64,000 nucleotides of DNA, from positions 2,108,001-2,172,000 of the forward strand of contig NZ_CP038256.1 in NCBI RefSeq assembly GCF_004564075.1. Direction: 5' to 3'. Below the pieces are notes generated by a model. It searched no databases, was not told the DNA's origin, and saw nothing but the letters and a program-made list of their open reading frames with translations. Source of the DNA: Microbacterium sediminis (GTDB lineage: Bacteria; Actinomycetota; Actinomycetes; Actinomycetales; Microbacteriaceae). Positions 8,796 to 54,550 of this stretch are shown piece after piece; the stretch's first letter is position 1; every line of letters starts with the position of its first letter. The translations under genes were made by a program, and so were the position numbers.

Positions 8796-8812
8796 GTTTA
8801 CATGTGCGTCAC
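8796..8812. promoter_or_regulatory. Weak GlnR-like box upstream of the xanthine dehydrogenase genes
   Basis: Minus-strand reading GTGAC-n6-GTAAAC (8812-8796) matches the GTnAC half exactly but the GAAAC half only in part. It contains the ATG at 8802, which argues that translation starts later, at 8835. On its own this would not be convincing. Confidence 0.3.
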
Positions 8813-13310: not shown

Positions 13311-13348
13311 GAAACGAACCTGACACATCGACATGTCAGGCTCGTTTC
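13311..13348. promoter_or_regulatory. 15-bp inverted repeat between xdhC and guanine deaminase (operator candidate)
   Basis: GAAACGAACCTGACA at 13311-13325 and TGTCAGGCTCGTTTC at 13334-13348 pair at 14 of 15 positions around an 8-base spacer. It abuts the xdhC ATG and lies 28 bases before the guanine deaminase ATG, so one bound protein could control both directions. Each arm also reads GAAAC-n6-GACAY, resembling part of a GlnR site. Confidence 0.65.
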
Positions 13349-13376
13349 GTGATGCTGACGGGCCAGAGGAGTAGCC

Positions 13377-14523: not shown

Positions 14524-15615
14524 TCAGCCGCCCGCCGCCGGCACCGGGAGCCCGACCGCGGGCGGCTGGGGCGCGTTGAGCAGCTCGACGAGGAAGTCCT
14601 CGAACGCCGGCACGTCGATCGCGCGCACCACGGTCTGGCGCGTCTCGCCGAGCCCGGGCTCGTATCCGGGCGCCCACGACAGGATGTCGCCATAGCCCGG
14701 CCCGAACTCGGTGTTCACATCGATGAAGAGCTCGTCGGACTCGGTGATCAGGTCGGGACGCAGCCAGGTGGCGGTCGCGATCTCGTCCCAGAGCGGGAAG
14801 CCCGGATGACGCGAAGCGAGCGCACGGCACAGCGGCGTGCCCGCGGCCGTCATCCGGGCCAGAAGCTCCGCCGTGAGCTCCGTGGCCGTCGACGGGTCGA
14901 CCGGGATCATCGTCACCCGCGGCCACGGCGAGCGCATCACGATGCTCGCCGCCTCAGGGTCCCAGCGGATGTTGAACTCGCGCCGCGGCGAGTTGGCGAA
15001 CTCTCGGGCGAACTGATGCGCCGACGTGCTGTCCCGACGGCGGTGCGGGTTGAGGCTGCCCCCCATGTAGACGAGCTCCTTCACCCGGGATGCGAAGCCG
15101 GGATCGAGGGACTGCGCCAGGGCGAGCGTGGTGAGAGGGCCCGTGGCGATGATGCTGACCTCCCCCGGGTGCTCGCGCGTCAGCCGCAGCATGGTCAGGG
15201 CCGCATGCTCCTCGCTCGCGGGGACGACGGTCGGGTTCCCGATCGGCAGGTCGACGACGACGTCGTGCGCGTGGTAGCGGGGATCGCTCTGCAGGGTCTC
15301 CTCGACCCACCCGCGGCTCCACGCGCCCTTCCACACGAGCTTGCCGTAGAGCGCCTCCCATCGCTCGGTCGCCGCCTCGGAGTTCAGCAGCGGGAACACC
15401 GACCCCGGCAGTGCGGGGATCTCGGGGTGGCCGGTGATCTCGAGCATCCGCCGCACGTACGCCAGCGACTGATCCCGCCACACGTTCCCGCTGATGGCCG
15501 AGAACCCGAGCACCTGGGCCTCGGCGGACTGCAGCAGGAGCGGGAAGGCGGCGTGGAAGCCGGAGACGTCGTCCTCGACGATCACCTTGCGGGCGGGGTT
15601 CGTCGTCTGGGTCAT
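14524..15615 (-). CDS. Nucleoside hydrolase-fold protein with a degenerate metal-binding motif
   Basis: 363 residues related to inosine-uridine nucleoside N-ribohydrolases, which release nucleobase from nucleosides. Conserved family segments are IIATGPLTTLALAQ (near 158) and VYMGGS (near 182). The N-terminal calcium-binding motif, normally DTDPGxDDA, reads EDDVSGFHA here (residues 14-22): Glu replaces the first Asp, and the final two Asp are Phe20 and His21. Only Asp16 keeps its place. The enzyme may use a different metal geometry, act on another substrate, or be a non-catalytic binder. It lies 121 bases after the fused ABC permease on the same strand and is probably the last gene of that operon. 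Confidence 0.75.
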   Translation of the reverse strand: MTQTTNPARKVIVEDDVSGFHAAFPLLLQSAEAQVLGFSAISGNVWRDQSLAYVRRMLEITGHPEIPALPGSVFPLLNSEAATERWEALYGKLVWKGAWSRGWVEETLQSDPRYHAHDVVVDLPIGNPTVVPASEEHAALTMLRLTREHPGEVSIIATGPLTTLALAQSLDPGFASRVKELVYMGGSLNPHRRRDSTSAHQFAREFANSPRREFNIRWDPEAASIVMRSPWPRVTMIPVDPSTATELTAELLARMTAAGTPLCRALASRHPGFPLWDEIATATWLRPDLITESDELFIDVNTEFGPGYGDILSWAPGYEPGLGETRQTVVRAIDVPAFEDFLVELLNAPQPPAVGLPVPAAGG

Positions 15616-15736: not shown

Positions 15737-17356
15737 TCATCCGACGATCCCGATGCGACGTGTCAGCGTGCCGCTGACGAGTGACAGCACGGCATAGATC
15801 GCGAGGACGGTCACGACGAGGAGCACGCTCGCCGACCACAGCTGCAGATACTGCGCGCGCACCGAGGACACCGCGAGCAGGTGCCCGATGCCGTCGCCGG
15901 TCGCGAGCCACTCGGCGAGCGTGGCGCCGGCGATCGATGCGGGCACGGCGATCTGCGCCGACGCGATGATGGAGGGGACGGCGTACAGCACCCGGATGTG
16001 GCGGGCGATCTGCCATCCGGATCCGCCGGTCGCGCGGACGACGTCCACGGCGCCCTCCGGCGCGGCGCGGAGTCCGCCCATGACGTTCACGAGCGTGGGG
16101 AAGAACGTGATCAGGACGACCACGATGGTGACCGCGAGCAGCCCCCGCCCGAACACGATGACGATGACGGGGATCATCGCCATCATCGGGATCGAGCGCA
16201 GCACGACGGCGAGCGGCATGACCACGCTCTCCAGACGCGGCAGGGCGACCAGGGCGATCGCGCCGAGCACGGCGAGCGCGGTGCCGGCGACGAACCCCGA
16301 CGCCGCGTGCACCGCGGTCTCGCCCATCGCGCCCAGGAACGTCGCCCAGAACACCTCCGGGCCCTCGCCCGTGCGCGGGTCGCCTTCGGTCAGGAACCGC
16401 GCGATATCGTGCGGGAGCTTCACGAAGTAGTCGCTGAGCCCGAACACACCCCGCAGCGCGTACCAGGACGCCGCGACCAGCCCGAAGGCGACCAGGAGCG
16501 CGACGATGCTCTTGCCTGTGCCGAGCCGCGCGGTCTCCGCGCCGGCGACCGTCGTGTCGACGGTCGCGCCCTTCCCCGCCCACGGCACGGCCAGACGTGC
16601 GACCAGCGTCACCATCGCGTAGCCGACGGCCGCGATCGCCCCGGCGACGACGCCGATCGCCCATACGCGGGTCACGAGGAACTGTTCCTGCGACGCGAGC
16701 AGCACGGCCCCCAGGCCGCGATCCGCCCCGAAGAACTCGCTGATCAGCGCGCCGAGCACCGCCGAGGGCACGCCGATCTGGAGCGCGGCGATGATGCTCG
16801 GCACGGCCGACTGCACCCGCAGGAAGCGGACCTTCGCCCAGCCCCGGCCACCGCTGGCGGTGATGACGTCGGCGGCCCGCCCGTCGACCGAGCGCAGCCC
16901 GAGCAGCAGGCCGACGAGCAGGGGGAAGTACACCGCGAGCGCCGTGATGATCACGCGCGCCGTTTCGGGAGGGACCGCAACGGTCAGGATCGGGGCGATC
17001 GCCACGGTGGGGATGACGTGCACGACGGTCGCGACGATGAACACGACCGGCTGGCTCACGGGGAGGAGGAAGCAGAGCACCGCGAGCGGCACAACCACCG
17101 CGATCGCCCAGAGCAGCCCCTGCGCCGCACGACCGAGCGTGTGGGCCGCGTTGCCGGCGAGCAGCTGCCCGTCGGCGACGATCTGGGCGACGAGCGTCCA
17201 CGGGTAGGGCACCACGCCGTTGTCCGCGAAGGCGGTGGCCACCAGCAGCCAGACGACCGCGAGGGACCCCAGCACGATCAGGGGCAGCCGGATCCCGCGC
17301 CGGCGGGGCGTGCGGCCGTGGGAGACCCGCGTGGCCAGGCCCGACGTCACCGTCAC
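15737..17356 (-). CDS. ABC transporter permease, two permease domains fused in one chain
   Basis: 539 residues starting at GTG 17356, whose GTGA overlaps the stop of the ATPase gene. Two BPD_transp_1 (SsuC/TauC/ThiX-type) membrane domains are joined head to tail: the first at about 20-265 with the EAA-type loop [17 protein letters not shown], the second at about 290-535 with [17 protein letters not shown]. Importers of this class usually work as a dimer of identical permeases; the fusion builds both halves into one protein. The divergent second operon keeps its two permeases as separate genes (23981-25680). Predicted role is the membrane channel for a purine- or pyrimidine-like solute (inference from neighbours). 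Confidence 0.88.
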
Positions 17357-18156
17357 GATGCCGCGCCGCCTCGTGCCGAGAACAGCAGCTCGCCGAGGTG
17401 ATCCGCGTAGGCGTGGAAGACGGCCTCCTGCCGGACGGCGGCGGTGCGCGGCCGGGGCAGCTCGACGTCGACGCGCTCGATGATGCGTCCCGGTCGTGCC
17501 GCCATGACGAAGATGTGATCGCTCAGGAACACGGCCTCCTGCAGCGAGTGGGTGACCAGCAGCGTGGTGGTCGGCCGCTCCGTCCAGATCCGCTGCAGCT
17601 CGACGTTCATGTGGTGCCGCGTCATGTCGTCGAGCGCGCCGAACGGCTCGTCGAGCAGCAGCACGTCCGGCTCGAGCACGAGCGCCCGCGCGATGGCCAC
17701 CCGCTGGCGCATGCCGCCGGAGAGCTGCGCGGGCCGCGCCTGCTCGAAGCCCGCGAGGCCGGTGAGCGCGATGAGGTCCGCGATCGCCCTGGGGTCGACG
17801 GCCCGCCCGGCCACCTGCAGTGGCAGCGCGATGTTCGCCTCCACGGATCGCCAGGGCAGCAGCGCGGCGTCCTGGAACGCGACGCCGATGTGGTGCCCGC
17901 GCTGCACCTCCCGGGGAGCGCGGCCCAGCACCTCGAGCGTGCCGGTGGACGGGGTGTCGAGGCCGGCGAACATCCGGAGCAGCGTCGATTTCCCGCACCC
18001 GGAGGGACCGATCAGCGACACGAAGGATCCTTCGCGGGTGGTGAAGGAGACGTCGTCGAGCGCCGTGACGGGGCCCGAGCGGGTGGAGAACACCTTCCCC
18101 ACCCGCTCGACGGCGAGGCCGTCGCGGACGACCGTGGCAGGGGCGGAGTCACTCAC
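17353..18156 (-). CDS. ABC transporter ATP-binding protein (SsuB/TauB/ThiZ type)
   Basis: 267 residues from GTG 18156. Walker [10 protein letters not shown] at 50-58, Q-loop in [14 protein letters not shown], signature [12 protein letters not shown], Walker [15 protein letters not shown]-loop VTHSLQEA. The PWRS segment after the Q-loop is typical of the nitrate/sulfonate/taurine/pyrimidine-precursor importer class. It overlaps the substrate-binding protein gene by 8 bases and the permease by 4, so the three are one transporter. Confidence 0.93.
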
Positions 18157-19198
18157 CGAGGATGCCCTCCTGCGCCGACAGGTCGAAGAGGTCGGCTGCG
18201 TCGAGATCGATGTCGAGGATGTCGTCGAAGAGCGCCTGGGTCGAGGCGACCCCCTTCTCTGTGATCTCCAGCAGCCCGCCTTCGTTGAGGTCGGCGCCTC
18301 GCTCGATGAGGTCGGCCCAGACGACGGCGCCGTCGACCTGGGACTCCCGCTCGAGACCGAGCTGGTCGCCGTAGACCTCGTACACGAGCTCGCCCGCGGC
18401 CTCGGGATCCGCGATGAAGTCCTCGGCGCTGGCGAGGGTGCCCCGCAGGATCGCCTTGATCTGCTCGAGCTTGTCCGGATCCTCCAGCGAGTCCTCGCGC
18501 ACGACGAGGATGCTGCTCCACCGGTTGTAGCCGTAGTCGGCCACGGCGAACGACGTGGTCGGCGTGCCCTGGGCCTCGAGAACGACGGGGACGTTGCCGA
18601 GCGTCGTGTACAGCGCGTCCACCTGGTCCGTGACCAGGGGCGTCGCGGAGCCGTCGACGGTGACGATCTCGATGTCGGCCGTGTCGACTCCCACCCATTC
18701 CAGGAAGGGCAGCAGCGTCACCTCCTGCCCTGTGGTGACGCCGATGCGCGTGCCCGCCAGGTCCTCGATCTCCTCGATGCCGGAGTCGGCGAGCATGGTG
18801 ATGCTCGTCGAGGAGAACTGGTACAGGGCGGCGACGCCGACCAGGGGCGCGCCGTTGCGCACGGCGTCGGCGAGGGTCTGCGTCGACATCAGCCCGACCA
18901 GGGCGCCGCCGCCGACAATCTGCGCGTCCACGGTCACGTCAGGGCCGCCGGGAAGGATCTCGAGCTCGATGCCCTCGTCCTCGAAGTACCCCTTCTCGTC
19001 GCCGAGGACGTAGACGCCGTTCTCGATGTTCGGAAGCCACCCCAGCTGCAGAGCGGCCGGCGCGAGCTCGTCGGAGCCCTGCCCGCCTGGGGCGGGCGCC
19101 GAGCACCCGGTGAGCGCGAGGGCGAGGCCCGCGCCGGCGACGAGAGCGGTGATCCGGCGCACGGTGCCGGGGACCGGGACAGAGGGTGTGGTCGACAT
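18149..19198 (-). CDS. ABC transporter substrate-binding lipoprotein (NMT1/THI5-like)
   Basis: 349 residues with a lipoprotein signal peptide ending ALTGC (Cys32). The mature protein belongs to the NMT1/THI5-like periplasmic-binding family ([29 protein letters not shown]), whose members bind thiamine pyrimidine precursors, nitrate, sulfonates, riboflavin or nucleobase-like compounds. The gene heads an operon with ATPase, fused permease and nucleoside-hydrolase-like gene. A GlnR-type box and an AATCGATT operator lie upstream. The substrate is not determinable here; a purine derivative is the contextual guess. Confidence 0.85.
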
Positions 19199-19281
19199 GG
19201 TGGGGTCTCCAGAGATGATCGGAATCGGGGCTTGCGAGAGGGGGCGAGGCTGCGATCCGCATCATGGCACTGTCGCTGCCA

Positions 19282-19289
19282 AATCGATT
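19282..19289. promoter_or_regulatory. AATCGATT operator upstream of the ABC operon (LacI-type site)
   Basis: AATCGATT, a palindrome with the central CG typical of LacI-family operators, 84 bases before the start of the substrate-binding protein gene. The same 8-mer occurs between the amidohydrolase and the LacI regulator genes. Confidence 0.55.
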
Positions 19290-19342
19290 CTGCACGGAGG
19301 ACGCGGTCGTCTCCCAGGGATGCGAAAAGGCTTATCGAGAAC

Positions 19343-19358
19343 GTAACGAGGCGGAAAC
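19343..19358. promoter_or_regulatory. GlnR-type box upstream of the ABC operon
   Basis: GTAAC at 19343-19347, six bases, GAAAC at 19354-19358: an exact match to the actinobacterial GlnR half-site pair GTnAC-n6-GAAAC, about 145 bases before the start codon of the minus-strand operon. Confidence 0.65.
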
Positions 19359-19379
19359 TTGCTCTCCGGGCGTCACCGG

Positions 19380-20750
19380 TCAGCCGATCAGCGCGGCCAG
19401 CTCACGCTGCCGGACCGCCGCGCGGGCACGGATCTCGCTCACGTCCGCGGTCAGCACCTCGCCGTCCTTGACGACGACGGCCCCGTCGACCAGGACGTGC
19501 CGCACATCGCGCCCGCTGGCGCATTCGTAGAGGAAAGCCTCCGCGGACGCGTACGCGGCGGCGTCGGGACCGTCGGTCCGCAGCACGACGATGTCGGCGC
19601 GCTTTCCGACCTGGAGCGTGCCGACGCGGTCCTGGATGCCCATGGCACGAGCACCGCCGACGATGGCCATCCCCAGGATCTCCTCGCCGCGCACGCCGTT
19701 ACGGTTGTGCACGGGCGTGGCCTCGACGTGCTGCTGCCCGACGCGGGCGAGCATCGCGACACGGAACAGGTCGAGCGTGCCCAGCCCTGCCACCCCGTCC
19801 GTGCCGAGCCCGATGGACACCCCCCGACGCCACATCCGCAGTGCCGGAGGCGTGCCGATGGAGTAGTTGCCCTTGGCGCAGTGCGCCGCGGAGACGCCAT
19901 GGCGGGCATAGGCGTCGATGTCCTGATCGTCCACCAGGATCGAATGCGCGCCGTGCAGGGCGCTGTCGAAGACCCCCTGCTCGATCAGATGGTCGATGGG
20001 GCGGCGCCCGAACCGCTCCAGGGCGAAATCGATCTCGTACGTCCCCTCCACGAGGTGGGTGTGAACCTTGACACCGCGCGCGGAGGCTTCGCGGTGGATG
20101 CCCGAGACCAACTCCGGGCTGCAGGTGATGATCTGCCGGAGCGACATGCCGGCGGTCACCCGCGTCGACCCGTCCGCCGCCGCGGGCAGGCGCTCGACGA
20201 GGGCGACGTTCTCCGCGATCGCCTCGTCCGTGCTCATCTGCATGCTCGCCGGGATCCGGTCGCCGCCGTCCATCGTGCTCAGCGACACGGAGCCCCGGAT
20301 GCCGCTCCGCCACGCCGCGGCGGCCATCGCGTCGGGATGCGGGCCTCCCGCCTCGAAGAAGGCGGTGGTGCCGGTCTGGAGCATCGCCGTGTAGGCCAGC
20401 ATCCCGGACAGCTCGACATCCTCGGGGGTCAGATTCGCCTCGAACGGCACGAGGTACTCGCGCCAGGTGGGCACCCGCAGCGCCCCGCTCTTGGCGAGCG
20501 TCGGGAGCAGCCCGCGCATGAGGCTCTGCGCGGTATGCAGATGGGCGTCGGTTAGCCCGGGGATGACGATGTCCCCGGCCGCGTGGATCCGCTCCGAGGA
20601 GACCCATTCGGCCGTCACGTCCGAGGTCTCCCCGATGCCGACGATCACCCCGTCCTTGATCGCCACGGCCCCGTCGGAGAAGACGCGCGCCTCCTCGTCG
20701 AAGGTGACGACATGGGCGTTCTGGATGATCCGGTCCGCGGTCTGGGGCAT
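19380..20750 (-). CDS. Amidohydrolase-family deaminase (SsnA/guanine-deaminase-like)
   Basis: 456 residues from ATG 20750, chosen over an upstream ATG because GGAGGAAG lies five bases before it. A TIM-barrel metal-dependent hydrolase: metal ligands His70/His72 in DAHLHTAQ, later His in KVHTHLVEG and LHGAHSI, and the catalytic Asp in GLGTDGVAG. The C terminus (VGKRADIVVLR, VLVDGAVVVKDG) completes the small beta-sandwich. Relatives deaminate guanine, 8-oxoguanine, cytosine, s-triazines or similar rings. It faces a LacI-type regulator with an AATCGATT site between them, so its substrate may be the inducer. The exact ring substrate is unknown. Confidence 0.85.
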   Translation of the reverse strand: MPQTADRIIQNAHVVTFDEEARVFSDGAVAIKDGVIVGIGETSDVTAEWVSSERIHAAGDIVIPGLTDAHLHTAQSLMRGLLPTLAKSGALRVPTWREYLVPFEANLTPEDVELSGMLAYTAMLQTGTTAFFEAGGPHPDAMAAAAWRSGIRGSVSLSTMDGGDRIPASMQMSTDEAIAENVALVERLPAAADGSTRVTAGMSLRQIITCSPELVSGIHREASARGVKVHTHLVEGTYEIDFALERFGRRPIDHLIEQGVFDSALHGAHSILVDDQDIDAYARHGVSAAHCAKGNYSIGTPPALRMWRRGVSIGLGTDGVAGLGTLDLFRVAMLARVGQQHVEATPVHNRNGVRGEEILGMAIVGGARAMGIQDRVGTLQVGKRADIVVLRTDGPDAAAYASAEAFLYECASGRDVRHVLVDGAVVVKDGEVLTADVSEIRARAAVRQRELAALIG

Positions 20751-20791
20751 AACTTCCTCCGGTCTGAGACGATTTGCCGAGCTCATGCGAC

Positions 20792-20801
20792 GAATCGATT
20801 C
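20792..20801. promoter_or_regulatory. GAATCGATTC palindrome between amidohydrolase and LacI-type regulator
   Basis: A perfect 10-bp palindrome 42 bases before the amidohydrolase ATG. Its core AATCGATT is the same as at 19282-19289. It probably binds the adjacent LacI-family protein. Confidence 0.65.
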
Positions 20802-20857
20802 CGCATGGTCACGGCATGTCTACCACACGGCCGTCGGAGCACTGCGGGCCCCCGGCC

Positions 20858-20868
20858 TAGGATCGATT
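20858..20868 (+). promoter_or_regulatory. Promoter -10 of the LacI-type gene with an overlapping operator-like GATCGATT
   Basis: TAGGAT at 20858-20863 is a plausible -10 box; GATCGATT at 20861-20868 matches the AATCGATT operator at 7 of 8 bases and overlaps it, as expected for autorepression. Confidence 0.4.
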
Positions 20869-20895
20869 GACCGCCGCATAGCCGAAAGCCGACCG

Positions 20896-21909
20896 ATGAC
20901 CCCGTCCCCTCCCCGCGCGACGATCGCCGACGTCGCCGCCGCCGCCGGCGTCTCCCGCACGACCGTGTCCGTGGCGCTGTCCGGACGGGGACGCGTGGAC
21001 GCCCGCACCCGCGAGCACGTCAAGGCCGTCGCCGCCGCGCTCGACTACCGCCCGAGCGTGCGTGCCCAGCGCCTCCGCTCCGGCGTCTCCCACACCGTCG
21101 GCCTGGTGACCGCGCTGCCGGACGAGGTGGTCGGCAAAGACTCGCGCATGAGCTTCCTGCTGGAGCTGGGAGTGCCGCTTGCCCGCGCCCTGCTCGAGCG
21201 CGGCTACTCGACCCTCCTGCTGCCCCCGGCGAAGAGCGGGAGCCACCTCGACAACATCGACGCGGATGCGGCGGTCGTCCTGGATCCGCGCGCGGACGAC
21301 CCCCTGATCGAGGGCTTCCGCAGCCGCGGTCTCCAGGTCATCACGATCGGCGACGCCCCGGGCATCCAGGCCGACGGCGTGGTCGACCGCGGGACGAGCG
21401 ACGCCGAGGTCGCCATCGGCCACCTCGTCGACAACGGCGCGACGAACATCGTCGCGCTGTCCACCGTCGAACAGCACTCGCTCGCGTCCAGCCTGCGCAG
21501 CTACGCGCTCGGGCCGCGCCCCGACGGCGTGCGGCTTCGGCTCGTCGAGATCTCAGCCGACGCCGGCGAGGAAGGCGGCAAGGCGCGCGCCCGCGATCTG
21601 CTCCGCGACGACCCGTCGATCGACGCGATCTACGCCCCGATCGACGCCTTCGCCGTAGGCGCCCTGCACGCCGCGCAGGAAGCCGGGATGCGCGTCCCGG
21701 ACGACATCATGATCATCACGAACTACGACGGCCCCCGCGCGCACGCGACCACTCCTGCGCTGACCGCGCTGAACCTGCAACTGCCCGCGTTCGCCGATGC
21801 CGCGGTGAGCCTGCTGATCGACTGCCTCACCGACCCCCGGGCCGAGCGGCGCACGATCCCCGCGCCCCGGCCGGAGGTCGTCCAGCGCGCCTCGACGAGA
21901 CGCGCCTGA
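20896..21909 (+). CDS. LacI-family transcriptional regulator
   Basis: 337 residues. The helix-turn-helix ATIADVAAAAGVSRTTVSVAL spans residues 8-28, with the hinge helix at about 45-60 (YRPSVRAQRLRSG), followed by a periplasmic-binding-protein-like effector domain of two lobes. LacI proteins repress until a small ligand, often a sugar or purine, binds. Its divergent position to the amidohydrolase and three AATCGATT-like sites (19282, 20792, 20861) suggest that it controls the amidohydrolase, the ABC operon and itself. The ligand is unknown. Confidence 0.92.
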   Translation: MTPSPPRATIADVAAAAGVSRTTVSVALSGRGRVDARTREHVKAVAAALDYRPSVRAQRLRSGVSHTVGLVTALPDEVVGKDSRMSFLLELGVPLARALLERGYSTLLLPPAKSGSHLDNIDADAAVVLDPRADDPLIEGFRSRGLQVITIGDAPGIQADGVVDRGTSDAEVAIGHLVDNGATNIVALSTVEQHSLASSLRSYALGPRPDGVRLRLVEISADAGEEGGKARARDLLRDDPSIDAIYAPIDAFAVGALHAAQEAGMRVPDDIMIITNYDGPRAHATTPALTALNLQLPAFADAAVSLLIDCLTDPRAERRTIPAPRPEVVQRASTRRA

Positions 21910-21939
21910 TCGCGCGGCCGCCGCCGTGCGGGAGCGCGT

Positions 21940-21955
21940 GTAACCACGGCGAAAC
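21940..21955 (+). promoter_or_regulatory. GlnR-type box upstream of the second ABC/deaminase operon
   Basis: GTAAC at 21940-21944, six bases, GAAAC at 21951-21955: an exact GTnAC-n6-GAAAC pair, 117 bases before the start of the next gene. It stands only 31 bases after the LacI gene stop, in the intergenic space. Confidence 0.65.
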
Positions 21956-22071
21956 ACCCCGCCGGTGTTCGCGAAATCTGCGTCTCCTAGCGTCTACTCA
22001 CGCGCGCCGCCGAGGACACGGAGCGGGGCGTCGACACCCGAAGCGGTCCCGTCGACCTGGAGACACATCAC

Positions 22072-23142
22072 ATGACCTTCCGCACCTCTCGCACACGGCG
22101 CGCATCCGTCGCGCTGCTGGGCACCGCCGCCGCGGTGCTCGCCCTGGCCGCCTGCTCGACCGGCGACGACGACGCCTCGTCCGAGCCGGGCGCCGCCGCC
22201 GAGGGCTTCGGCGACATCACTCTGCAGCTCAGCTGGATCTTCAACGAGGAGTTCGCCGGCGAGTACGTCGCCGACTCCGAGGGCTATTTTGCCGAGGCCG
22301 GCTTCGACTCGGTCACGCTCGTCCCCGGCCCGTCCACGGGCGTCGCGGAGCTGCTCAGCGGCACCGCCGACATCGCGCTGAGCGACTCCGTGGCGGTCGG
22401 CACCGCCATCGCGAACGAGAGCGCGCCGCTGAAGATCATCGGCGCGACGTTCCAGGCCAACCCGTTCACGATCCTCTCCCTCGGCGACGGCGGGAACATC
22501 GCCGCCCCGGAGGACCTGATCGGCAAGAAGATCGGCGTGCAGGACTCCAACACGTCGCTGTTCAACGCGCTGCTGGCGGCCAACGGCATCGACGCCTCCG
22601 AGGTCGAGGTCGTCCCTGTCCAGTACGACCCCGCTCCCCTCGTCAACGGCGAGGTCGACGGCTTCGTGGCGTATCTCACGAACGAGGCGATCACCGTCGA
22701 GATGATGGGCCTGGACACCGTGAACCTGCCCTTCGCGGAGAACGGCCTGCCCTTCGTCGCCGAGACGTTCACCGTCACGCAGGAGACCCTCGACAGCCAG
22801 CCGGAGATGCTGAAGGCGTTCCTCACGGCCGAGATCCGCGGCTGGACCGACGCCGTCGCCGACCCGCAGCTCGGCGCCGACCTCGCCATGGAGACCTACG
22901 GCACCGACCTGGATCTCGACCCGGAGAAGACCCTCGCTGGCTCCGAGGCGCAGAACGCCCTCGTGACCTCGGCGGACACGGAGGAGCACGGCCTCTTCGT
23001 GATCACCGAGGAGCTGCAGGAGATGACCATCGAGAGCCTCGCCGGTGCCGGCATCGAGATCACCGCCGACCAGCTGTTCGACCTCAGCCTGCTGGAAGAG
23101 GTCTACGCAGACAACCCAGAGCTCGTCAGCTACGCGGGCTGA
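22072..23142 (+). CDS. ABC transporter substrate-binding lipoprotein (NMT1/THI5-like), second system
   Basis: 356 residues with signal peptide and lipobox LAAC (Cys28). ITLQLSWIFNEEFAGEYVADSEGYFAEAG is the NMT1/THI5-type opening of the mature protein, divergent from the binding protein at 18149-19198. A Shine-Dalgarno TGGAG precedes the ATG. First gene of a six-gene plus-strand operon (binding protein, ATPase, two permeases, two deaminases). The co-transcribed adenine/adenosine deaminase makes a purine or nucleoside the likely cargo (inference). Confidence 0.85.
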   Translation: MTFRTSRTRRASVALLGTAAAVLALAACSTGDDDASSEPGAAAEGFGDITLQLSWIFNEEFAGEYVADSEGYFAEAGFDSVTLVPGPSTGVAELLSGTADIALSDSVAVGTAIANESAPLKIIGATFQANPFTILSLGDGGNIAAPEDLIGKKIGVQDSNTSLFNALLAANGIDASEVEVVPVQYDPAPLVNGEVDGFVAYLTNEAITVEMMGLDTVNLPFAENGLPFVAETFTVTQETLDSQPEMLKAFLTAEIRGWTDAVADPQLGADLAMETYGTDLDLDPEKTLAGSEAQNALVTSADTEEHGLFVITEELQEMTIESLAGAGIEITADQLFDLSLLEEVYADNPELVSYAG

Positions 23143-23166
23143 TCACCGAACCACAAGGAAGCACCC

Positions 23167-23991
23167 GTGACAGACACGGCCACGCAGGCCGGTGCCCAGG
23201 CGAACGCCCTGGGCACCGGCCTGCAGATCACCGCCCTCAACAAGTCGTTCCGCGTGGGACGACGCACGGTCGTCGCCCTGCAGGACGCCGACCTGCACAC
23301 CGATCAGGGTACGTTCCTCTCGCTCCTCGGCCCGTCCGGCTGCGGCAAGTCCACGATCCTGCGGATCCTCGCCGGCCTCGAGGAGCCCACCAGCGGCACC
23401 ACCCGGGTGGACGGCAAGAGCCCGCGGCAACTGCGCAAGGAGAACGCGCTGGGCATCGCGTTCCAGGACTCCGCGCTGCTGCCGTGGCGCAGCGTCGAGG
23501 CGAACATCCGGCTGCCGTTCGAGGTCGCGGGCAGGCCCGTCGACCACGCGTACGTGCGCGAGATGATCGACCTCGTCGGCCTGACCGGGTTCGAGAAGGC
23601 CAAGCCCGCCCAGCTGTCCGGCGGCATGCGGCAGCGCGTCTCGATCGCCCGGTCGCTCATCCTGAAGCCCGAGGTGCTGCTGTTCGACGAGCCCTTTGGC
23701 GCGCTGGACGACATGACGCGCCAGAGGCTGAACCTCGAGCTGCTGCGGATCTGGACCGAGAAGCCCGCCACCACCCTCCTGGTCACGCACGGCATCTCGG
23801 AGGCGATCTTCCTCAGCGACAAGGTGGCGGTGATGAGCCCGCGCCCCGGACGGATCAAGGCCGTCATGGACATCGACCTGCCGCGGCCCCGCACGCCGGA
23901 GCTGATGCGCACGCCCGAGTTCCACGCCTACGTGGACGAGGCCTCCGAGCTGCTCTTCGGCGCCGACGGCGCCGCGACCGATGACCTCTGA
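23167..23991 (+). CDS. ABC transporter ATP-binding protein, second system
   Basis: 274 residues from a GTG start. Walker [10 protein letters not shown] at residues 55-63, Q-loop [14 protein letters not shown], signature [12 protein letters not shown], Walker [15 protein letters not shown]-loop VTHGISEA. It belongs to the same SsuB/TauB-like class as the ATPase at 17353-18156, so the two transporters are paralogous. It overlaps the next permease gene by 11 bases. Confidence 0.93.
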
Positions 23992-24805
23992 GACGGGCGG
24001 GGCCCGCCGCGTCGGCCGACTGCCCGCGCCGGTCGTCGGCGTGCTCGGCGTCGTCGCGATCGTCGCGCTGTGGTGGGTCCTGGCGCTCACCGTGTTCTCG
24101 GACGTCGGCGGCCGGGGCGTGCAGGCGGTCCCCACGCCGCCGCAGGTGATCGCCGCGATGGTCGAGTCGGGCGGGGAGTTCTACGTGCGCAACTTCTCGG
24201 TCACCCTCGCCGAGGCGGGCATCGGCTATCTGTGGGGCAACAGCCTCGCGCTGGCCGCGTCCGCGCTCGTGCTGCTCGTGCCGCGGCTCGAACCGGTGAT
24301 CATGCAGCTGGCGATCCTCACCTACTGCGTCCCGATCGTGGCGATCGGGATCCTCCTCGTCGTCATCATCCCGCTGCCGCGAGCGGGCGAGCCCGCGGGC
24401 AACGCGGTGTTCCTCGCCGCACTGTCGGTGTTCTTCACCACGGTGGTGGGCGCGCTGCTCGGCCTCAAGGCGGCGGATCGCAGCGCTCTCGACGTCGTCG
24501 CCGTCTACGGAGGATCCCGGCTCACGCAGCTGCGCAAGGTGCGGGTCATCGCGGCCCTCCCCGCGATCCTCAACGCATTGCAGATCGCCGTTCCCGCGGC
24601 GTTCCTCGGCGCCGTGCTCGGGGAGTTCTTCGGCAAGGTGCAGCTCGGCGTGGGGCCCGCGATGATCGCGGCACAGCAGGGGCTCGACGCGCCCCGGCTC
24701 TGGGGCATCGCGCTCGTGTCGGGTCTCGTCGCCCTCGCGGGGTACGGGGCCATCGGGCTGGCCTCGCGGGCGATCGCCCCCTGGTCGAGAGGAGGAACGC
24801 GATGA
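23981..24805 (+). CDS. ABC transporter permease 1, second system
   Basis: 274 residues with about six membrane helices and one BPD_transp_1 domain; the coupling loop [18 protein letters not shown] (near 166-183) docks onto the ATPase. Its sequence corresponds to the first half of the fused permease of the other system. The stop overlaps the following ATG (ATGA), indicating coupled translation with the partner permease. Confidence 0.9.
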
Positions 24806-25680
24806 GCGGATCCCACACGGCCGCACTGTCCCAGGTCGCCACCGTCGAGGCGCCCGCACTGGCCGCGAAGGTCCGCGCCGACGCCCGCCGCGCGACGATG
24901 AAGGCGCTCGGGTCGAGCCTGCTGACCTTCGCGCTGACCATCGTGACGGTGCTGGTCCTGTGGCAGGGGACGCTGTCCCTCTTCGGCGTCAGCGCCTACG
25001 TGGGCAAGGGGCCTGCCGACGTCTGGACGTTCCTCGTCAGCGCGCCCGACGCCGCGGCGAACCGGGCCCAGCTGTTCGGCCAGCTGGGCGAGACGCTCGG
25101 CGACGCGGCGATCGGCTTCGTCGCAGGCCTCGTCGTCGCGCTCCTCGTCGCGATGCTGTTCCAGCTCAGCAACGGCGCCGAGCAGGCGCTCATGCCCCTC
25201 GCCATGCTGCTGCGCTCGGTACCGCTCGTCGCGATGGCGCCCGTGATCATCCTGATCTTCCAGCGCAGCTTCGTGACGGTCGCGGTCATCGGGGGCATCG
25301 TGGTGCTCTTCCCCGCGCTCGTGAACATCGTCTTCGGGCTGCGCTCCTCGTCGCCGCTGATGAACGACGTCATCGCCGTCTACGGCGGATCCGCGTGGAC
25401 CGCGCTGCGCAAGGTCGCCCTGCCGAACGCGCTGCCCTCCCTGCTGGCGGCCGTGCGGATCTCCGTCCCGGGCGCGATCACCGGCGCCCTCCTGGCCGAA
25501 TGGCTGGCGGTCGGCGGCGGGATCGGCGGCAGCGTCGGCGCCTATCAGGCACAGGCGCAGTTCTCCGCCCTGTGGACGGCCGTCGTGCTCGTCACCGCCG
25601 CCGCGCTGGTCATCTACAACATCGTCGCCGTCGTCGAGTCGATCGTGCTCGCCCGCATGGGCATGGCCGACCGCTCCTGA
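24802..25680 (+). CDS. ABC transporter permease 2, second system
   Basis: 292 residues from ATG 24802, which is preceded by GAGGAGG. An N-terminal cytoplasmic stretch of about 40 residues is followed by about six helices and the coupling loop VIAVYGGSAWTALRKVAL. It corresponds to the second half of the fused permease at 15737-17356 and should form a heterodimer with permease 1. Confidence 0.9.
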   Translation: MSGSHTAALSQVATVEAPALAAKVRADARRATMKALGSSLLTFALTIVTVLVLWQGTLSLFGVSAYVGKGPADVWTFLVSAPDAAANRAQLFGQLGETLGDAAIGFVAGLVVALLVAMLFQLSNGAEQALMPLAMLLRSVPLVAMAPVIILIFQRSFVTVAVIGGIVVLFPALVNIVFGLRSSSPLMNDVIAVYGGSAWTALRKVALPNALPSLLAAVRISVPGAITGALLAEWLAVGGGIGGSVGAYQAQAQFSALWTAVVLVTAAALVIYNIVAVVESIVLARMGMADRS

Positions 25681-25697
25681 TCTCCCCGAAGGACTCC

Positions 25698-26747
25698 ATG
25701 TCTCACACCACCGCTCCCCCGTCGCTGCGCGAGTTCGCCTTCGGGCTGCCCAAGGCCGAGCTGCACTTGCACCTGGAGGGCACGCTCGAGCCCGAGCTGA
25801 AGTTCGCCCTGGCCGCGCGCAACGGCGTCGAGCTCGCGGAGAAGACCGTGTCGGAGGTGACGGCGACCTACGACTTCACGGATCTGACGAGCTTCCTCGC
25901 CGTCTACTACCCGGCGATGCGCGTGCTGCAGACCGCCGAGGACTTCCACGACCTGGCGTGGGCGTACCTGCAGCGGGCGAAGGAGCACGGCGTCGTGCAC
26001 GTCGAGATGTTCTTCGATCCGCAGGCCCACACCAGCAGGGGCGTCCCCTTCGACACGGTGGTCTCCGGCTATCGTCGCGCCGCGGTCCGGGCGCAGCGCG
26101 AGCTCGGCGTCTCGGCGGAGCTGATCCTCTGCTTCCTGCGGGACTTCTCCGCCGAGTACGCCATGGCGACGCTGATGGAAGCGCTGCCCTACAAGGCCTG
26201 GATCGTCGGCGTCGGACTCGACTCCGACGAGCGCGACAACCCGCCGGCGAAGTTCGCGGAGGTGTTCGCCCGCGCCAAGGCCGAGGGCTTCCTGACCACG
26301 ATGCACTGCGACATCGACCAGGCGGGCTCCCTCGAGAACATCCGCACCGTCATCGAGGAGATCGGCGTGGACCGCATCGACCACGGGACGAACATCGTGG
26401 AGGACCCCGAGCTCGTCGAGCTGGCCAGGCAGCGCGGACTCGGGTTCACCTGCTGCCCCGTGTCCAACTCGTTCGTCACCGAGCAGATGAAGACCGACGA
26501 GATCGTCGGGCTCCTGCGCCGGGGCGTGAAGGTGACGGTCAACTCCGACGACCCGGCCTACTTCGGCGCCTATGTCGCCGACAACTACATCGCCCTCGCC
26601 GAGAAGGCGGGCCTCAGCCATGCCGATCTCGCGCAGCTGGCGATCAACTCCTTCGACGCCTCCTGGATGACCCCCGCCCGGCGCACCGCTCACGTCGACG
26701 CGGTGCGCCGCTACGCGGCGGAGCACGGCGTGACGCTGCCGTCCTGA
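25698..26747 (+). CDS. Adenine/adenosine deaminase family protein with altered HxGE motif
   Basis: 349 residues, ADA-family TIM barrel that would convert adenine or adenosine to hypoxanthine or inosine. Metal ligands His23/His25 are in ELHLHLEG, another His in RIDHGTNIVE, and the metal Asp in TVNSDDPAYFGAY, a form typical of bacterial/fungal adenine deaminases. The usual catalytic HAGE is replaced by His203-Cys-Asp-Ile-Asp207, so the proton-donating Glu is missing from its expected place. It starts 17 bases after permease 2, in the same operon. Adenine deaminase is slightly favoured over adenosine deaminase; a novel 6-aminopurine deaminase is possible. Confidence 0.78.
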   Translation: MSHTTAPPSLREFAFGLPKAELHLHLEGTLEPELKFALAARNGVELAEKTVSEVTATYDFTDLTSFLAVYYPAMRVLQTAEDFHDLAWAYLQRAKEHGVVHVEMFFDPQAHTSRGVPFDTVVSGYRRAAVRAQRELGVSAELILCFLRDFSAEYAMATLMEALPYKAWIVGVGLDSDERDNPPAKFAEVFARAKAEGFLTTMHCDIDQAGSLENIRTVIEEIGVDRIDHGTNIVEDPELVELARQRGLGFTCCPVSNSFVTEQMKTDEIVGLLRRGVKVTVNSDDPAYFGAYVADNYIALAEKAGLSHADLAQLAINSFDASWMTPARRTAHVDAVRRYAAEHGVTLPS

Positions 26748-26790
26748 CGCCGAGCCCCCGCCCCGCAGCACCGTCCTCCCCGGAGAGAAC

Positions 26791-27408
26791 ATGACCGCCG
26801 ACGCCCTCGCCACCTCGTTCACCCTGCGGCTGCCCGAGTGGCTCGAACGGGAGCTGCCGCGGCTCCCCGAGATCCTCCCCGACGTCGACGGGCGCATGGC
26901 GCTGGTCAATCGGCTCGCGCGCCGCAACTTCGCGGAGGGCAACGGCGGCCCCTTCGCCGCCCTCGTCGTCGAGCGGGAGACCGGGCGGCTCGTGTCCGTG
27001 GGAGTGAACGTCGTGCTCTCCACCGGGATCTCTTCCGGCCACGCCGAGGTGGTGGCCCTCGGCCTGGCACAGCAGCGGGTGGGCGGCTGGGACCTGGCCG
27101 CCGCGCACCTGCCCGAGCACGAGCTGGTCGTCAACTGGCGCCCCTGCGTGCAGTGCTACGGCGCGACGATGTGGTCGGGTGTGACCTCGCTCGTGGTCGC
27201 CGGCTCCGGGCCCGAGCTCGAGGAGCTGTCCGGGTTCGACGAGGGCCCGATGCGCGAGGACTGGGACGAGCAGTTCCGCCGCCGCGGCATCTCGGTCGTC
27301 TCCGGGGTGCGGCGCGACGAGGCGCTCGACGTCTATCGCGAGTACGGGGCGTGGGTCGCCGCGCACGACGGCGTCGTCTACAACGCCCGCGCCTCGCGAC
27401 CGGAGTGA
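26791..27408 (+). CDS. Nucleoside/nucleobase deaminase, cytidine-deaminase fold
   Basis: 205 residues. Zinc motifs are His84-Ala-Glu86 (GHAEVVAL) and Pro-Cys119-x-x-Cys122 (RPCVQCYGA), so the enzyme should be active. It is about 50 residues longer than the guanine deaminase at 13377-13853 and has an N-terminal extension (SFTLRLPEWLERELPR) typical of a distinct actinobacterial group. It follows the adenine deaminase by 43 bases and ends 9 bases before the convergent hpxO. The ring it deaminates is not known; guanine, cytosine or a related purine fits the setting. Confidence 0.78.
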   Translation: MTADALATSFTLRLPEWLERELPRLPEILPDVDGRMALVNRLARRNFAEGNGGPFAALVVERETGRLVSVGVNVVLSTGISSGHAEVVALGLAQQRVGGWDLAAAHLPEHELVVNWRPCVQCYGATMWSGVTSLVVAGSGPELEELSGFDEGPMREDWDEQFRRRGISVVSGVRRDEALDVYREYGAWVAAHDGVVYNARASRPE

Positions 27409-27417
27409 CGCCCTCGC

Positions 27418-28587
27418 TCAGGCGAGGTCGGCCCCGAGGCCGGTGGGGCTCTCGAGGATGTTGCCGAGGATGCCGCGGACGATCCGGGATCCGTCGGCGC
27501 CGCGCAGGCCTTCGTACCAGGCCTCGGTGACACCGGGCTCGAAGGCGTGCGTCTCGTGCGCGCGGGCACGGCCGCGCTCGACGAGGTCGCCGGCGCGCTC
27601 GGCACGAGCGCGCTCGTAGCGGGCGAGCGTGTCCTGCGGGCCGAGCGTCGTCATCGAGAAGAGCAGCCCGAGCACGAACGAGTCCTCCAGCGCGGAGCAC
27701 GCCCCCTGCCCCACGTCGGGAGCGGTGTTGTGCGCGGCGTCGCCCAGGATCGCGACGCGTCCGCGCACCCAGGTGTGGAACGGATCCAGGTCCCAGATCT
27801 CCACGCGATTGAGCGAGGCCGGATCGATCGAGTCGATCATCGACGCGACACCCGGAGCCCATCCCGCGAACGCGTCGCGCAGCGCGCCGTGCGCGGACCC
27901 CGGCTCCTCCCCCGAGGGGCCGGGCACGTCGGCGAAGAAGTAGAGGCGATCGCCCGCGACGGGCATCGCGGCGAAGCGCCTGCCCGCCGCGACATACGTC
28001 GTCCACTGGCCGGCCGGGCCGAACGCGGTGTTCGCCGGCACCAGGCCGTTGTAGTTGACGTAGCCGCGATAGGAGCGCGGCATCCGCCGGCCCACCACGT
28101 AGTCGCGGACGATCGACTTGGCGCCGTCGGCGCCGATCACGATGTCGGCCGAGTCGGACGACCCGTCCTCGAAGACGACCGTCGCCCGGTCGTCGTCCTG
28201 GTCGATCCCGACGGCCTTCTTCCCCAGGCGGATCCGATCGGTCCCGAAGCGCTCCATGAGCAGCTGCTGCAGGTCGGCGCGCGCCACGGGATAGGGGCGC
28301 TGGCCGGTCTTCTCGGTGATGGGCGCGAGGCTGAACTCGGTCATCGTCTCACCCGTGAGGCCGTCTCGGTAGGCCATGGTGTCCATGCGCCCGCCGAGCG
28401 CGGCGACCTCCTCGGAGAGTCCGAGCCAGTTGAGCACCTTGACGCCGTTCGACCACAGCGACAGGGCCGCGCCGACCGGCTTGTTCTCGCGGATCCGATC
28501 GTAGATCGTCACGTCGTGCCCGAGACGCTGCAGCGCGATGCCGGCGCTCGTGCCGCCGACTCCCGCCCCGATGATGACGACCTTCAT
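27418..28587 (-). CDS. hpxO: FAD-dependent urate hydroxylase
   Basis: 389 residues from ATG 28587. A class A flavoprotein monooxygenase: GAGVGG at 7-12 binds FAD, IVIGADGAKS (near 150) is the DG motif, and ILGDAAHNTAPDVGQGA (near 270) is the GD motif. It resembles HpxO, which turns urate into 5-hydroxyisourate with NADH and O2. The immediate upstream genes are uraH (one-base gap) and uraD, which carry the product on to (S)-allantoin, so the assignment is well supported by context. Confidence 0.92.
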   Translation of the reverse strand: MKVVIIGAGVGGTSAGIALQRLGHDVTIYDRIRENKPVGAALSLWSNGVKVLNWLGLSEEVAALGGRMDTMAYRDGLTGETMTEFSLAPITEKTGQRPYPVARADLQQLLMERFGTDRIRLGKKAVGIDQDDDRATVVFEDGSSDSADIVIGADGAKSIVRDYVVGRRMPRSYRGYVNYNGLVPANTAFGPAGQWTTYVAAGRRFAAMPVAGDRLYFFADVPGPSGEEPGSAHGALRDAFAGWAPGVASMIDSIDPASLNRVEIWDLDPFHTWVRGRVAILGDAAHNTAPDVGQGACSALEDSFVLGLLFSMTTLGPQDTLARYERARAERAGDLVERGRARAHETHAFEPGVTEAWYEGLRGADGSRIVRGILGNILESPTGLGADLA

Positions 28588-28588
28588 G

Positions 28589-28909
28589 TCAGGACCCCCG
28601 GTAGGTGGAGTAGGCGAACGGGCTGAGCAGGAGCGGGACATGAACGTGCCGCTGATCGACGACCGTGAACGTCACGTCCACGAACGGGTAGAACGTGTCG
28701 ACGCGCTTGTGCGCGAAGTAGCCGCCCGTCTCGAAGCGCAGCGTGTAGTCGCCGGCGGGCAACCGGTCGGGGCCGACCGCCGCGCGACCGTCGGCGTCGG
28801 TCTCCGCGGTCGCGACCCGCTCCCCCGCCGCCGTGGAGAGCACGAGGCGGATGCCAGGGGCGGGCATCCCGCTCGCCGCGTCGAGGACGTGAGTCGTCAG
28901 GTGGGGCAT
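28589..28909 (-). CDS. uraH: 5-hydroxyisourate hydrolase (transthyretin-like)
   Basis: 106 residues, the full length of the transthyretin-like HIU hydrolase that converts 5-hydroxyisourate to OHCU. The N-terminal THVLDAASGMPAPG and C-terminal HVHVPLLLSPFAYSTYRGS are diagnostic, the family normally ending YRGS. The stop lies one base before hpxO and the start overlaps the uraD stop by one base, so the three are translated from one message. Confidence 0.96.
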   Translation of the reverse strand: MPHLTTHVLDAASGMPAPGIRLVLSTAAGERVATAETDADGRAAVGPDRLPAGDYTLRFETGGYFAHKRVDTFYPFVDVTFTVVDQRHVHVPLLLSPFAYSTYRGS

Positions 28910-29406
28910 CAGGCCTCCAGGGTCTGTTCGAGGCGGAGCACGGCGATCTCGGCAAGCTGCGCGGCCGCCTCACGCCATTCGTCGTGGGGGTCGTTCGCGA
29001 GGCGTCGCTCGAGCTCCGCGAGCATCTCCTCGGGCGAACGGCCCGCCGCGCGGATGAGGAACACGCGGCCGAAGCGCTGCTCGTACGCGGCGTTCGCCGT
29101 GGCCATGCGAGCCGTGAGGGCATCGGAGGCCGCCGCCATCGACGACTGCTCGCGGCGGGAGTGATCGGCCTCCTCGGATCGCGCCGAGACGCGCTCGCCG
29201 ATCCGCGGGTGGTGCGCGAGCGCCGCGTCCAGATCCCGCATCGTCCAGTCGCGCGCAGCGGCTGCCGCGAGCCCCGACGCCTCCGTGACGGAGCGGAACG
29301 GACGGGCCGCCACGATCGCCGACACCCAGGCGGGGACGTCGGCCCACACCCGGACGACCGCGCGCGCCGCAGCGTCGGGCAGGGCGTTGAACTCGCTCAG
29401 CTGCAC
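28909..29406 (-). CDS. uraD: 2-oxo-4-hydroxy-4-carboxy-5-ureidoimidazoline (OHCU) decarboxylase
   Basis: 165 residues from GTG 29406 (VQLSEFNALP). A further in-frame GTG at 29415 overlaps the TAGGGT -10 box, so the shorter, leaderless start is preferred. HHPRIGERVS is the active-site segment with the catalytic His, and FIRxxGRS-type FLIRAAGRSPEEML follows. UraD decarboxylates OHCU to (S)-allantoin. It is the first gene of the uraD-uraH-hpxO operon. A GlnR-like box lies just upstream of the promoter. Confidence 0.93.
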   Translation of the reverse strand: MQLSEFNALPDAAARAVVRVWADVPAWVSAIVAARPFRSVTEASGLAAAAARDWTMRDLDAALAHHPRIGERVSARSEEADHSRREQSSMAAASDALTARMATANAAYEQRFGRVFLIRAAGRSPEEMLAELERRLANDPHDEWREAAAQLAEIAVLRLEQTLEA

Positions 29407-29413
29407 GTCTCTC

Positions 29414-29419
29414 ACCCTA
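29414..29419 (-). promoter_or_regulatory. -10 box TAGGGT of leaderless uraD promoter
   Basis: TAGGGT on the minus strand, then seven bases, then the GTG at 29406. Confidence 0.5.
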
Positions 29420-29429
29420 GCCAGCGCAC

Positions 29430-29445
29430 GTTTCCGGCCCGTTGC
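29430..29445 (-). promoter_or_regulatory. GlnR-like box upstream of uraD-uraH-hpxO
   Basis: Minus-strand reading GCAAC-n6-GAAAC matches GTnAC-n6-GAAAC at 9 of 10 informative positions or better. It covers about -24 to -39 relative to the inferred start, so it overlaps the -35 region. Confidence 0.5.
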
Positions 29446-53642: not shown

Positions 53643-53784
53643 GCGTTCATTGTCGCGCACTCGCCCTGCGAACGGCGTGCGGGTCGTCCGAGGGGCGGGC
53701 TCGGCCGTGTCACAGCGGCCTCTCAGCACGGCCTATTATGGGGTCCACGGTGCGGCCGCCCCCGCCGCCCGAAAGGACGTTCGC

Positions 53785-54480
53785 TTGGCACAGCTCCTCG
53801 TTTTGAGTTCCGCCCCCGGCGGCGGAGCGGTCCTGCCCGCCCTGGAACTCCTCAGCCACAAGGTGCGGCAGATCCCCGCCGAGCCGGCCCAGCTGGTGAA
53901 CGCTCCGAGCGCGGACGCGATCTTCGTGGATGCGCGAGCCGATCTGGTCGGTGCGAAGTCGCTGTGCAAGATCCTCAACACGACCGGGCTCGACGCACCC
54001 CTGCTGCTCGTGGTCACCGAGGGAGGGCTCACGGCGGTGTCGACCGACTGGGGCATCGACGACGTCATCCTCTCCACGGCCGGCCCGGCCGAGGTCGATG
54101 CGCGCGTGCGACTGGCGCTCGGCCGCCAGAACGCCGAGCAGCCGTCGGGGCGCATCCAGACCTCCGGCATCACGATCGACGAGTCCTCGTACTCGGCCAA
54201 GGTGCACGGCAAGCCGCTCGACCTCACCTACAAGGAGTTCCAGCTGCTGCACTTCTTCGCCACGCACCCCTCGCGCGTGTTCACTCGCGAGCAGCTGCTC
54301 AGCGAGGTCTGGGGCTACGACTACTTCGGCGGCACCCGCACGGTCGACGTCCATGTGCGGCGCCTGCGCGCCAAGCTCGGCGACCTCGAGCAGCTGATCG
54401 GCACCGTGCGCAACGTGGGGTACCGCTTCAACGTGTACGAGGACGACCAGCTGCCGCCCTCGAAGGTCTCCACCTCGTAG
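53785..54480 (+). CDS. glnR: Nitrogen master regulator GlnR (atypical OmpR-type response regulator)
   Basis: 231 residues from TTG 53785, with AAAGGA 9 bases upstream. The receiver domain is GlnR-like: [24 protein letters not shown] opening, then [20 protein letters not shown] and [19 protein letters not shown]. Asp49 sits where phosphorylation would occur, but the usual acidic cluster (here LSSA) and Lys are absent, fitting known GlnR, which acts without a kinase. The winged helix (about 130-220, ending [17 protein letters not shown]) binds DNA. GlnR activates nitrogen uptake and assimilation genes; sites of its consensus occur in the purine island of this window. Confidence 0.88.
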
Positions 54481-54550
54481 GACCGGCCGATCCGCCGCGC
54501 GGAGCGGTTCCGTTCACCACTCCGAAACCCAGCGGTGTCAGGATGGGGGC

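Follow-up and report, generated by a model that had tools for sequence, protein, structure and literature searches.

The window analysed here, a stretch of 64,000 nucleotides of Microbacterium sediminis (contig NZ_CP038256.1, positions 2,108,001 to 2,172,000), contains a group of genes that are apparently used for the import and breakdown of purines, together with three words which resemble binding sites of the nitrogen regulator GlnR, and the glnR gene itself. The group comprises two ATP-binding cassette (ABC) importer operons with NMT1-type substrate-binding proteins (SBP1 and SBP2), a gene of the LacI family which sits between them, an amidohydrolase gene, and a urate operon uraD-uraH-hpxO whose upstream side is adjoined by an MFS gene ending at 29455. 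The features are listed in Table 1.

Table 1. Features of the island and of glnR, and further exact GlnR-type words of the genome. Positions are those of the window; a prefix marks positions of the genome-wide scan.
Feature	Position	Strand	Basis or remark
Nucleoside hydrolase of SBP1 operon	14524-15615	-	
Fused double permease of SBP1 operon	15737-17353	-	
ATPase of SBP1 operon	17353-18156	-	
SBP1	18149-19198	-	NMT1-type, PF09084
LacI-type operator TGCCAAATCGATTCTGCA, putative	19277-19294		upstream of SBP1; palindrome at related operons
Site 1, exact box GTAAC-gaggcg-GAAAC	19343-19358	+	between amidohydrolase and SBP1 genes; points away from the minus-strand operon
Amidohydrolase/aminohydrolase (TRZ/ATZ, 8-oxoguanine/guanine deaminase-like)	19380-20786	-	44 NCBIfam models; best 25 all below cut-offs
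LacI-type operator GAATCGATTC, putative	20792-20801		upstream of amidohydrolase
LacI-family regulator	20896-21909	+	PF00356 and PF13377
Site 2, box a1-b1, GTAAC-cacggc-GAAAC	21940-21955	+	kept before same operon in relatives
Site 2, second b half-site GAAAT	21973-21977	+	17 bp after GAAAC; register a1-b1-(degenerate a2)-b2
Site 2, putative -10 hexamer TAGCGT	21988-21993	+	10 bp after second b half-site
SBP2, NMT1/ThiY-like substrate-binding lipoprotein	22072-23142	+	PF09084
ATPase of site 2 operon	23167-23991	+	Pfam; tblastn in relatives
Two permeases of site 2 operon	23981-24805, 24802-25680	+	Pfam; tblastn in relatives
Adenosine deaminase	25656-26747	+	TIGR01430 above cut-off; start uncertain
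Cytidine (CMP)/guanine-deaminase-type zinc deaminase	26791-27408	+	PF00383
hpxO, urate hydroxylase	27418-28641	-	NF033623 above cut-off
uraH	28589-28909	-	PF00576
uraD (OHCU decarboxylase)	28909-29406	-	TIGR03180 above cut-off; start probably GTG 29406 (listed open reading frame: 29415)
Site 3, putative -10 TAGGGT	29414-29419	-	10 bp after box, 7 bp before likely leaderless GTG start 29406-29404
Site 3, box GCAAC-gggccg-GAAAC	29430-29445	-	one mismatch
glnR, orphan OmpR-type response regulator	53779-54480	+	start uncertain; open frame from 53590
Exact box L001	G000:C1:80768-80783		before alanine dehydrogenase gene ald (TIGR00518 above cut-off)
Exact box L002			before glnA (PF00120)
Exact box L003			within coding sequence, by our reading
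Exact box L004, reversed	G000:C1:1987870-1987885 (L004:1501-1516)		before PnrA/BMP-type transporter gene (PF02608); nucleoside hydrolase upstream (PF01156)
Exact box L007			start of coding sequence, by our reading

A first-pass annotation of the window had placed GlnR-type boxes in the intergenic regions before both ABC operons and before the urate operon, all facing the genes. A sequence search returned the three words at exactly the positions given there, namely GTAACGAGGCGGAAAC (site 1) and GTAACCACGGCGAAAC (site 2) as exact matches to GTNAC-n6-GAAAC and GCAACGGGCCGGAAAC (site 3) with one mismatch, and all of them lie outside the genes called here. The orientation holds for sites 2 and 3 and fails for site 1, which is a plus-strand word beside a minus-strand operon.

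The window contains two exact words against 0.12 expected from 100 shuffles, and twelve with at most one mismatch against 4.74 expected. Seven exact words were found in the genome of 2.92 Mb (sites 1 and 2 and the five at the end of Table 1), while the reversed control gave one. A position matrix was trained on 28 amtB promoters of relatives, the own amtB being excluded and one poor best box (L206) included. With this matrix site 2 ranks first in the window, site 1 second and site 3 sixth, and the number of equally good scores expected by chance per window is 0.06, 0.53 and 2.7, respectively. The matrix therefore speaks for site 2; for site 3 the word alone is insufficient, because 2.7 such scores are expected per window anyway. 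The three sites are thus unequal in quality.

Site 2 is part of a longer arrangement, GTAAC-n6-GAAAC-n6-CCGGT-n6-GAAAT-n10-TAGCGT, in which the half-sites follow each other in an 11-bp register. The same layout is seen in the own glnA promoter (GTAAC, GAAAC, GACAC, GCAAC, n10, TAGGTT). Class-II activators of the OmpR/PhoB type bind tandem half-sites which recur every 11 bp and end 10 bp before the -10 hexamer, where they replace the -35 element. In a scan for the full architecture site 2 is the only match in its own genome. Among family genomes the architecture was matched in 127 of 249, with no match of the reversed control among the matches listed. All 30 loci fetched from these matches in relatives lie before glnA, and seven further listed matches, the own one included, precede SBP2 by their coordinates; the placement refers to these 30 and seven matches. 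As to the scan which had been proposed as a check, site 2 thus ranks with glnA.

The first-pass annotation had also named conservation in related genomes as a check, and for site 2 this is borne out in two sets of SBP2 loci. As for all counts from relatives given here, the loci share descent and are not independent events. The first set was taken from the 58 relatives with the best scores, of which 57 were used; G177:C44, which lies at a contig edge, was omitted. In this set an exact box precedes the gene at 13 of 57 loci against 0.16 expected in the same DNA, and a box with at most one mismatch at 35 of 57 against 2.0; it points at the gene at 33 loci and is reversed at five. The motif TAnnnT peaks at offset 32, where it follows 13 of 33 boxes, while 300 shuffles gave at most three at any offset. 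When the spacer of the box is varied from 2 to 10, spacer 6 yields 33 forward boxes with one mismatch allowed and no other spacer more than six; the spacer and -10 counts refer to 56 of the 57 loci, since L125 has too little upstream sequence. The second set comprises 72 new loci from named genomes. Here 20 boxes are exact, 53 within one mismatch point at the gene and one is reversed, and TAnnnT lies at offset 31-33 in 46 of the 53. The box precedes the corresponding ABC operon in a range of genera (Microbacterium, Demequina, Nocardioides, Isoptericola, Blastococcus and others) and is absent at four of four Rathayibacter and six of nine Cryobacterium loci (79 of 80 loci scanned, L336 being omitted). 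We consider it highly likely, judging from promoter layout and conservation, that site 2 is a GlnR operator.

Site 3 reads GCAAC-n6-GAAAC-n10-TAGGGT-n7-GTG, which matches the geometry found in relatives. Of 64 relatives with a uraD match 29 loci were examined, and eight of them carry a box within 150 bp, among these seven of the eight most similar. TAnnnT at offset 10, 21 or 32 is present at the own site 3 and at all seven boxed close relatives. The box points at uraD in five of these seven, and in the other two (L139 and L140) at a divergent gene, which in L139 encodes the allantoinase AllB (TIGR03178 above cut-off); the region between uraD and the divergent gene contains in both an exact box followed by n10-TACGGT-n6-ATG. 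As geometry and box are kept in the close uraD relatives, the box of the urate operon is probably real and the mRNA probably leaderless, and site 3 is very likely to be bound by GlnR as well.

The situation at site 1 is different. Among 366 genomes of the genus, eight (counting the own one) contain an SBP1 relative at an E value of 1e-60, and in the wider family sample no SBP1 relative above 37% identity occurs among the matches listed. The seven genus relatives of this operon differ in gene order and promoter. When their regulatory stretches were delimited by hand, a box with one mismatch was present once (L240), in the region that separates the operon from the LacI gene, and it points away from the operon; the other six have no box within one mismatch. 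Inspection by eye revealed no -10 element at n10, n21 or n32 from site 1 toward SBP1, and a class-II promoter at this site was rejected for lack of a -10 at class-II distances.

A palindrome is kept in this group. The LacI-family gene product combines the LacI helix-turn-helix with the ligand domain, and AATCGATT occurs at the adjoining genes and in five of the seven related SBP1/amidohydrolase loci, with three copies in the closest one (two loci within this count, L200 and L242, have similar operator stretches). Within the window AATCGATT is confined to 19282 and 20793, and the genome has two exact copies of AATCGATTCnGCA, one ahead of SBP1 and the other ahead of the amidohydrolase gene. Because AATCGATT is kept in five of seven relatives against one of seven for the GlnR box, the local LacI-family regulator is, as far as the sequences allow a judgement, the likelier main control of the SBP1 and amidohydrolase genes.

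Site 1 may nevertheless function as a GlnR operator in addition, in a reversed position like the box at the PnrA/BMP-type operon of the same genome, and we give this a little less than an even chance. The word is exact and has the second highest matrix score, and at the BMP-type operons of relatives (28 of 29, L191 being partial) boxes with at most one mismatch are reversed in 7 of 28 and forward in two. The spacer control shows a smaller margin there, spacer 6 giving seven reversed boxes and any other at most three. Words with at most two mismatches number 12 in the regulatory stretches of the seven site 1 relatives against 3.3 expected (a figure derived from DNA that is mostly coding), and several of them point away, as does the box of L240. 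A box on the non-coding strand is also described as an exception for SCO0888 in a review (PMC10704036). Against such a role stand the six relatives without a box, the missing -10 and the position of the LacI operator, which is located between the site 1 box and the SBP1 gene.

One could go further and suppose that the LacI-family regulator alone controls the island and that the GlnR words are coincidental. The position of its gene between the two ABC operons and the two occurrences of its palindrome, both in this island and repeated in related loci, would agree with that. This explanation fits the SBP1 and amidohydrolase genes, but it fails for the site 2 and uraD operons, before which no copy of AATCGATT is present, and sites 2 and 3 are far above chance both in architecture and in conservation. 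We regard it as unlikely.

The gene at 53.8 kb is indeed glnR, as stated in the first-pass annotation. Its product is similar over its full length to the solved structures 8hih, which we take to be the GlnR of M. tuberculosis (E 3.8e-77), and 8hig (E 1.9e-75). The 8hih alignment covers residues 68-279 of the open frame; with both structures the similarity starts at residue 67-68 and runs through the whole DNA-binding part, and an 18-residue stretch of the DNA-recognition part is identical in both alignments. The family also provides positive controls for the box. Within 450 bp upstream of amtB (29 of 30 loci, own included; the fragment L231 was dropped) an exact box is present at 21 of 29 loci and a box with at most one mismatch at 29 of 29, all pointing at the gene, and in the spacer control (2-10, forward, one mismatch) spacer 6 gives 28 and any other spacer at most seven. 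The register b1-n17-GAAA was found in 19 of 28 amtB boxes of relatives. Two of the seven exact words of the genome likewise belong to the glnA and ald promoters, and the box at ald has a divergent gene of the Lrp/AsnC type beside it.

Several observations argue against GlnR control of sites 2 and 3 or limit its extent. No box within one mismatch was found at 22 of the 57 SBP2 loci of the first set, and none pointing at the gene at 19 of the 72 of the second; 21 of the 29 uraD relatives have no box within 150 bp, and of the eight boxes found the one in L156 is out of phase. For uraD the spacer control also separates less clearly, with six forward boxes for spacer 6, four for spacer 4 and three for spacer 9. 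The own amtB has two boxes, each with one mismatch and none exact, and a TAnnnT peak at offset 32 was not found in the 28 amtB boxes; the n10 rule therefore does not hold everywhere. A box before an xdhC-type gene has matrix rank 5, above site 3, yet lacks the geometry. All 53 genomes examined encode GlnR; a link between box and regulator by presence and absence was therefore dropped, as there is no contrast. The neighbouring genes, that is the deaminases, are the sole pointer to a purine as transporter substrate, because the best solved matches of the SBP2 alignment include binders of pyrimidine precursors. Finally, competition between MtrA and GlnR is reported for some nitrogen genes of Streptomyces (PMC10704036), and the genome encodes a second OmpR-type match with 33% identity to GlnR, but that such a regulator rather than GlnR mainly binds the boxes is very unlikely, since two classic GlnR targets carry these features, glnA the full architecture (30 of 30 loci fetched) and amtB the box, and since the review assigns GlnR the decisive part.

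Taken together, we think it likely that GlnR uses sites 2 and 3 as operators to activate the importer/deaminase and the urate operon, while LacI-type control predominates at the SBP1 and amidohydrolase genes. When nitrogen is short, GlnR, whose gene lies 24-32 kb away, would bind the tandem 5-bp half-sites at their 11-bp spacing. Since the last half-site ends 10 bp before TAnnnT, GlnR would take the place of a -35 element and recruit RNA polymerase. It would thereby switch on the NMT1-type ABC importer with the adenosine and guanine-type deaminases on one side, and the leaderless uraD-uraH-hpxO operon on the other, so that purines could be imported and degraded as a nitrogen source. The LacI-family protein would mainly repress the SBP1 and amidohydrolase genes at the AATCGATT palindromes, with site 1 being at most an auxiliary contact for GlnR. 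GlnR thus very probably turns on genes for purine import and breakdown in this soil-type bacterium and in many of its relatives.

The control does not extend to a complete purine island as claimed in the first-pass annotation, because the window scan, with one mismatch allowed, placed no box ahead of the xanthine dehydrogenase genes at 8802. The box before the xdhC-type gene (13344-13359, minus strand, one mismatch) was not counted as a GlnR site, as there is no TAnnnT at n10. It overlaps a 38-bp inverted repeat, GAAACGA...TCGTTTC (13311-13348), which is immediately followed by the likely ATG (13310) of this minus-strand gene, and the repeat looks like the operator of a further regulator. The box between glnR and ppk (54513-54528, one mismatch, matrix rank 3) has by eye a leaderless-like layout of n10, CAGGAT, n6 and ATG. 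It was rejected, since it is kept in none of the seven relatives which have ppk beside glnR (20 of 52 relatives were fetched, and ppk lay within the stretch in seven). GTTCAC words near ppk, which presumably are Pho boxes, suggest Pho control of this gene instead.

A nitrogen-linked role would be assigned in this way to a little-known ABC importer found in many Actinomycetes, and GlnR targets that can be tested are named outside Streptomyces, Mycobacterium and Amycolatopsis. The promoter rule (tandem half-sites every 11 bp, 10 bp, TAnnnT) allows such targets to be located from the sequence. More tentatively, and at less than even odds, we suggest that in several families of Actinomycetes the core targets of GlnR include, with a promoter of glnA grade, an importer of the NMT1/ThiY type which takes up purines or related nitrogen-rich bases. 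GlnR would also employ two layouts within the same genome: one has class-II boxes at 10 bp from the -10 (at glnA, the importer, uraD and, in relatives, the allantoinase), and the other has boxes that lie upstream in reversed orientation at operons for nucleoside uptake (BMP type, site 1). If true, the reversed layout may be a repressing or a second activating mode layered over LacI control.

The combination of GlnR with purine use was called a new regulon branch in the first-pass annotation. That is too strong, as GlnR control of purine use is published for M. smegmatis and, via pucR, for Streptomyces (PMC4222082, PMC3662644, PMC10704036). In M. smegmatis growth on guanine and uric acid depends on GlnR and purine-transport genes are involved (PMC4222082). 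The 53 GlnR sites reported from chromatin immunoprecipitation include xanthine/uracil and purine permeases, genes of the PucR family and allantoicase, and the motif is given as Gn2AC-n6-GnAACA with critical adenines (PMC3662644). Nitrogen limitation induces genes for uricase, a transthyretin-type protein and OHCU decarboxylase, as stated in a further report (PMC4617892). GlnR is apparently tied to purine use in both organisms, but the uptake genes named for M. smegmatis are permeases, in contrast to the NMT1-type ABC importer with deaminases of M. sediminis, which also has HpxO in place of the uricase. In S. coelicolor pucR belongs to the GlnR regulon (PMC10704036), so that GlnR acts on purine catabolism via a regulator gene, whereas in M. 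sediminis the boxes precede structural genes. A term search of a paper on S. venezuelae GlnR gave no hit for purines (PMC3087709), and no GlnR study in Microbacteriaceae or Microbacterium was found among the top matches in the open-licence literature.

The local repressors of the LacI family are likewise matched by a palindromic operator with central CG, located beside the regulator gene and before SBP1 and the amidohydrolase gene; unlike the GlnR boxes of the site 2 and site 3 operons, it is restricted to the SBP1/amidohydrolase side. As for the promoter, GlnR boxes are usually, not always, on the coding strand, and the nas promoter of Amycolatopsis mediterranei follows a pattern a1-b1-b2 in which a2 is not needed, according to the review (PMC10704036). 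Site 2 is similar to it with a1, b1, b2 and a degenerate a2, and half-sites of GTnAC-n6-GAAAC are common to site 2, to nas and to glnA of S. coelicolor (a-b-a-b). The target genes differ from those two, the published b1-b2 spacer is 16 bp compared to 17 bp at site 2 (PMC10704036), and the distance to the TAnnnT -10 is derived in the present analysis. The principle is therefore already known, and what is added is a transporter operon, a urate operon and a promoter rule rather than a new kind of circuit.

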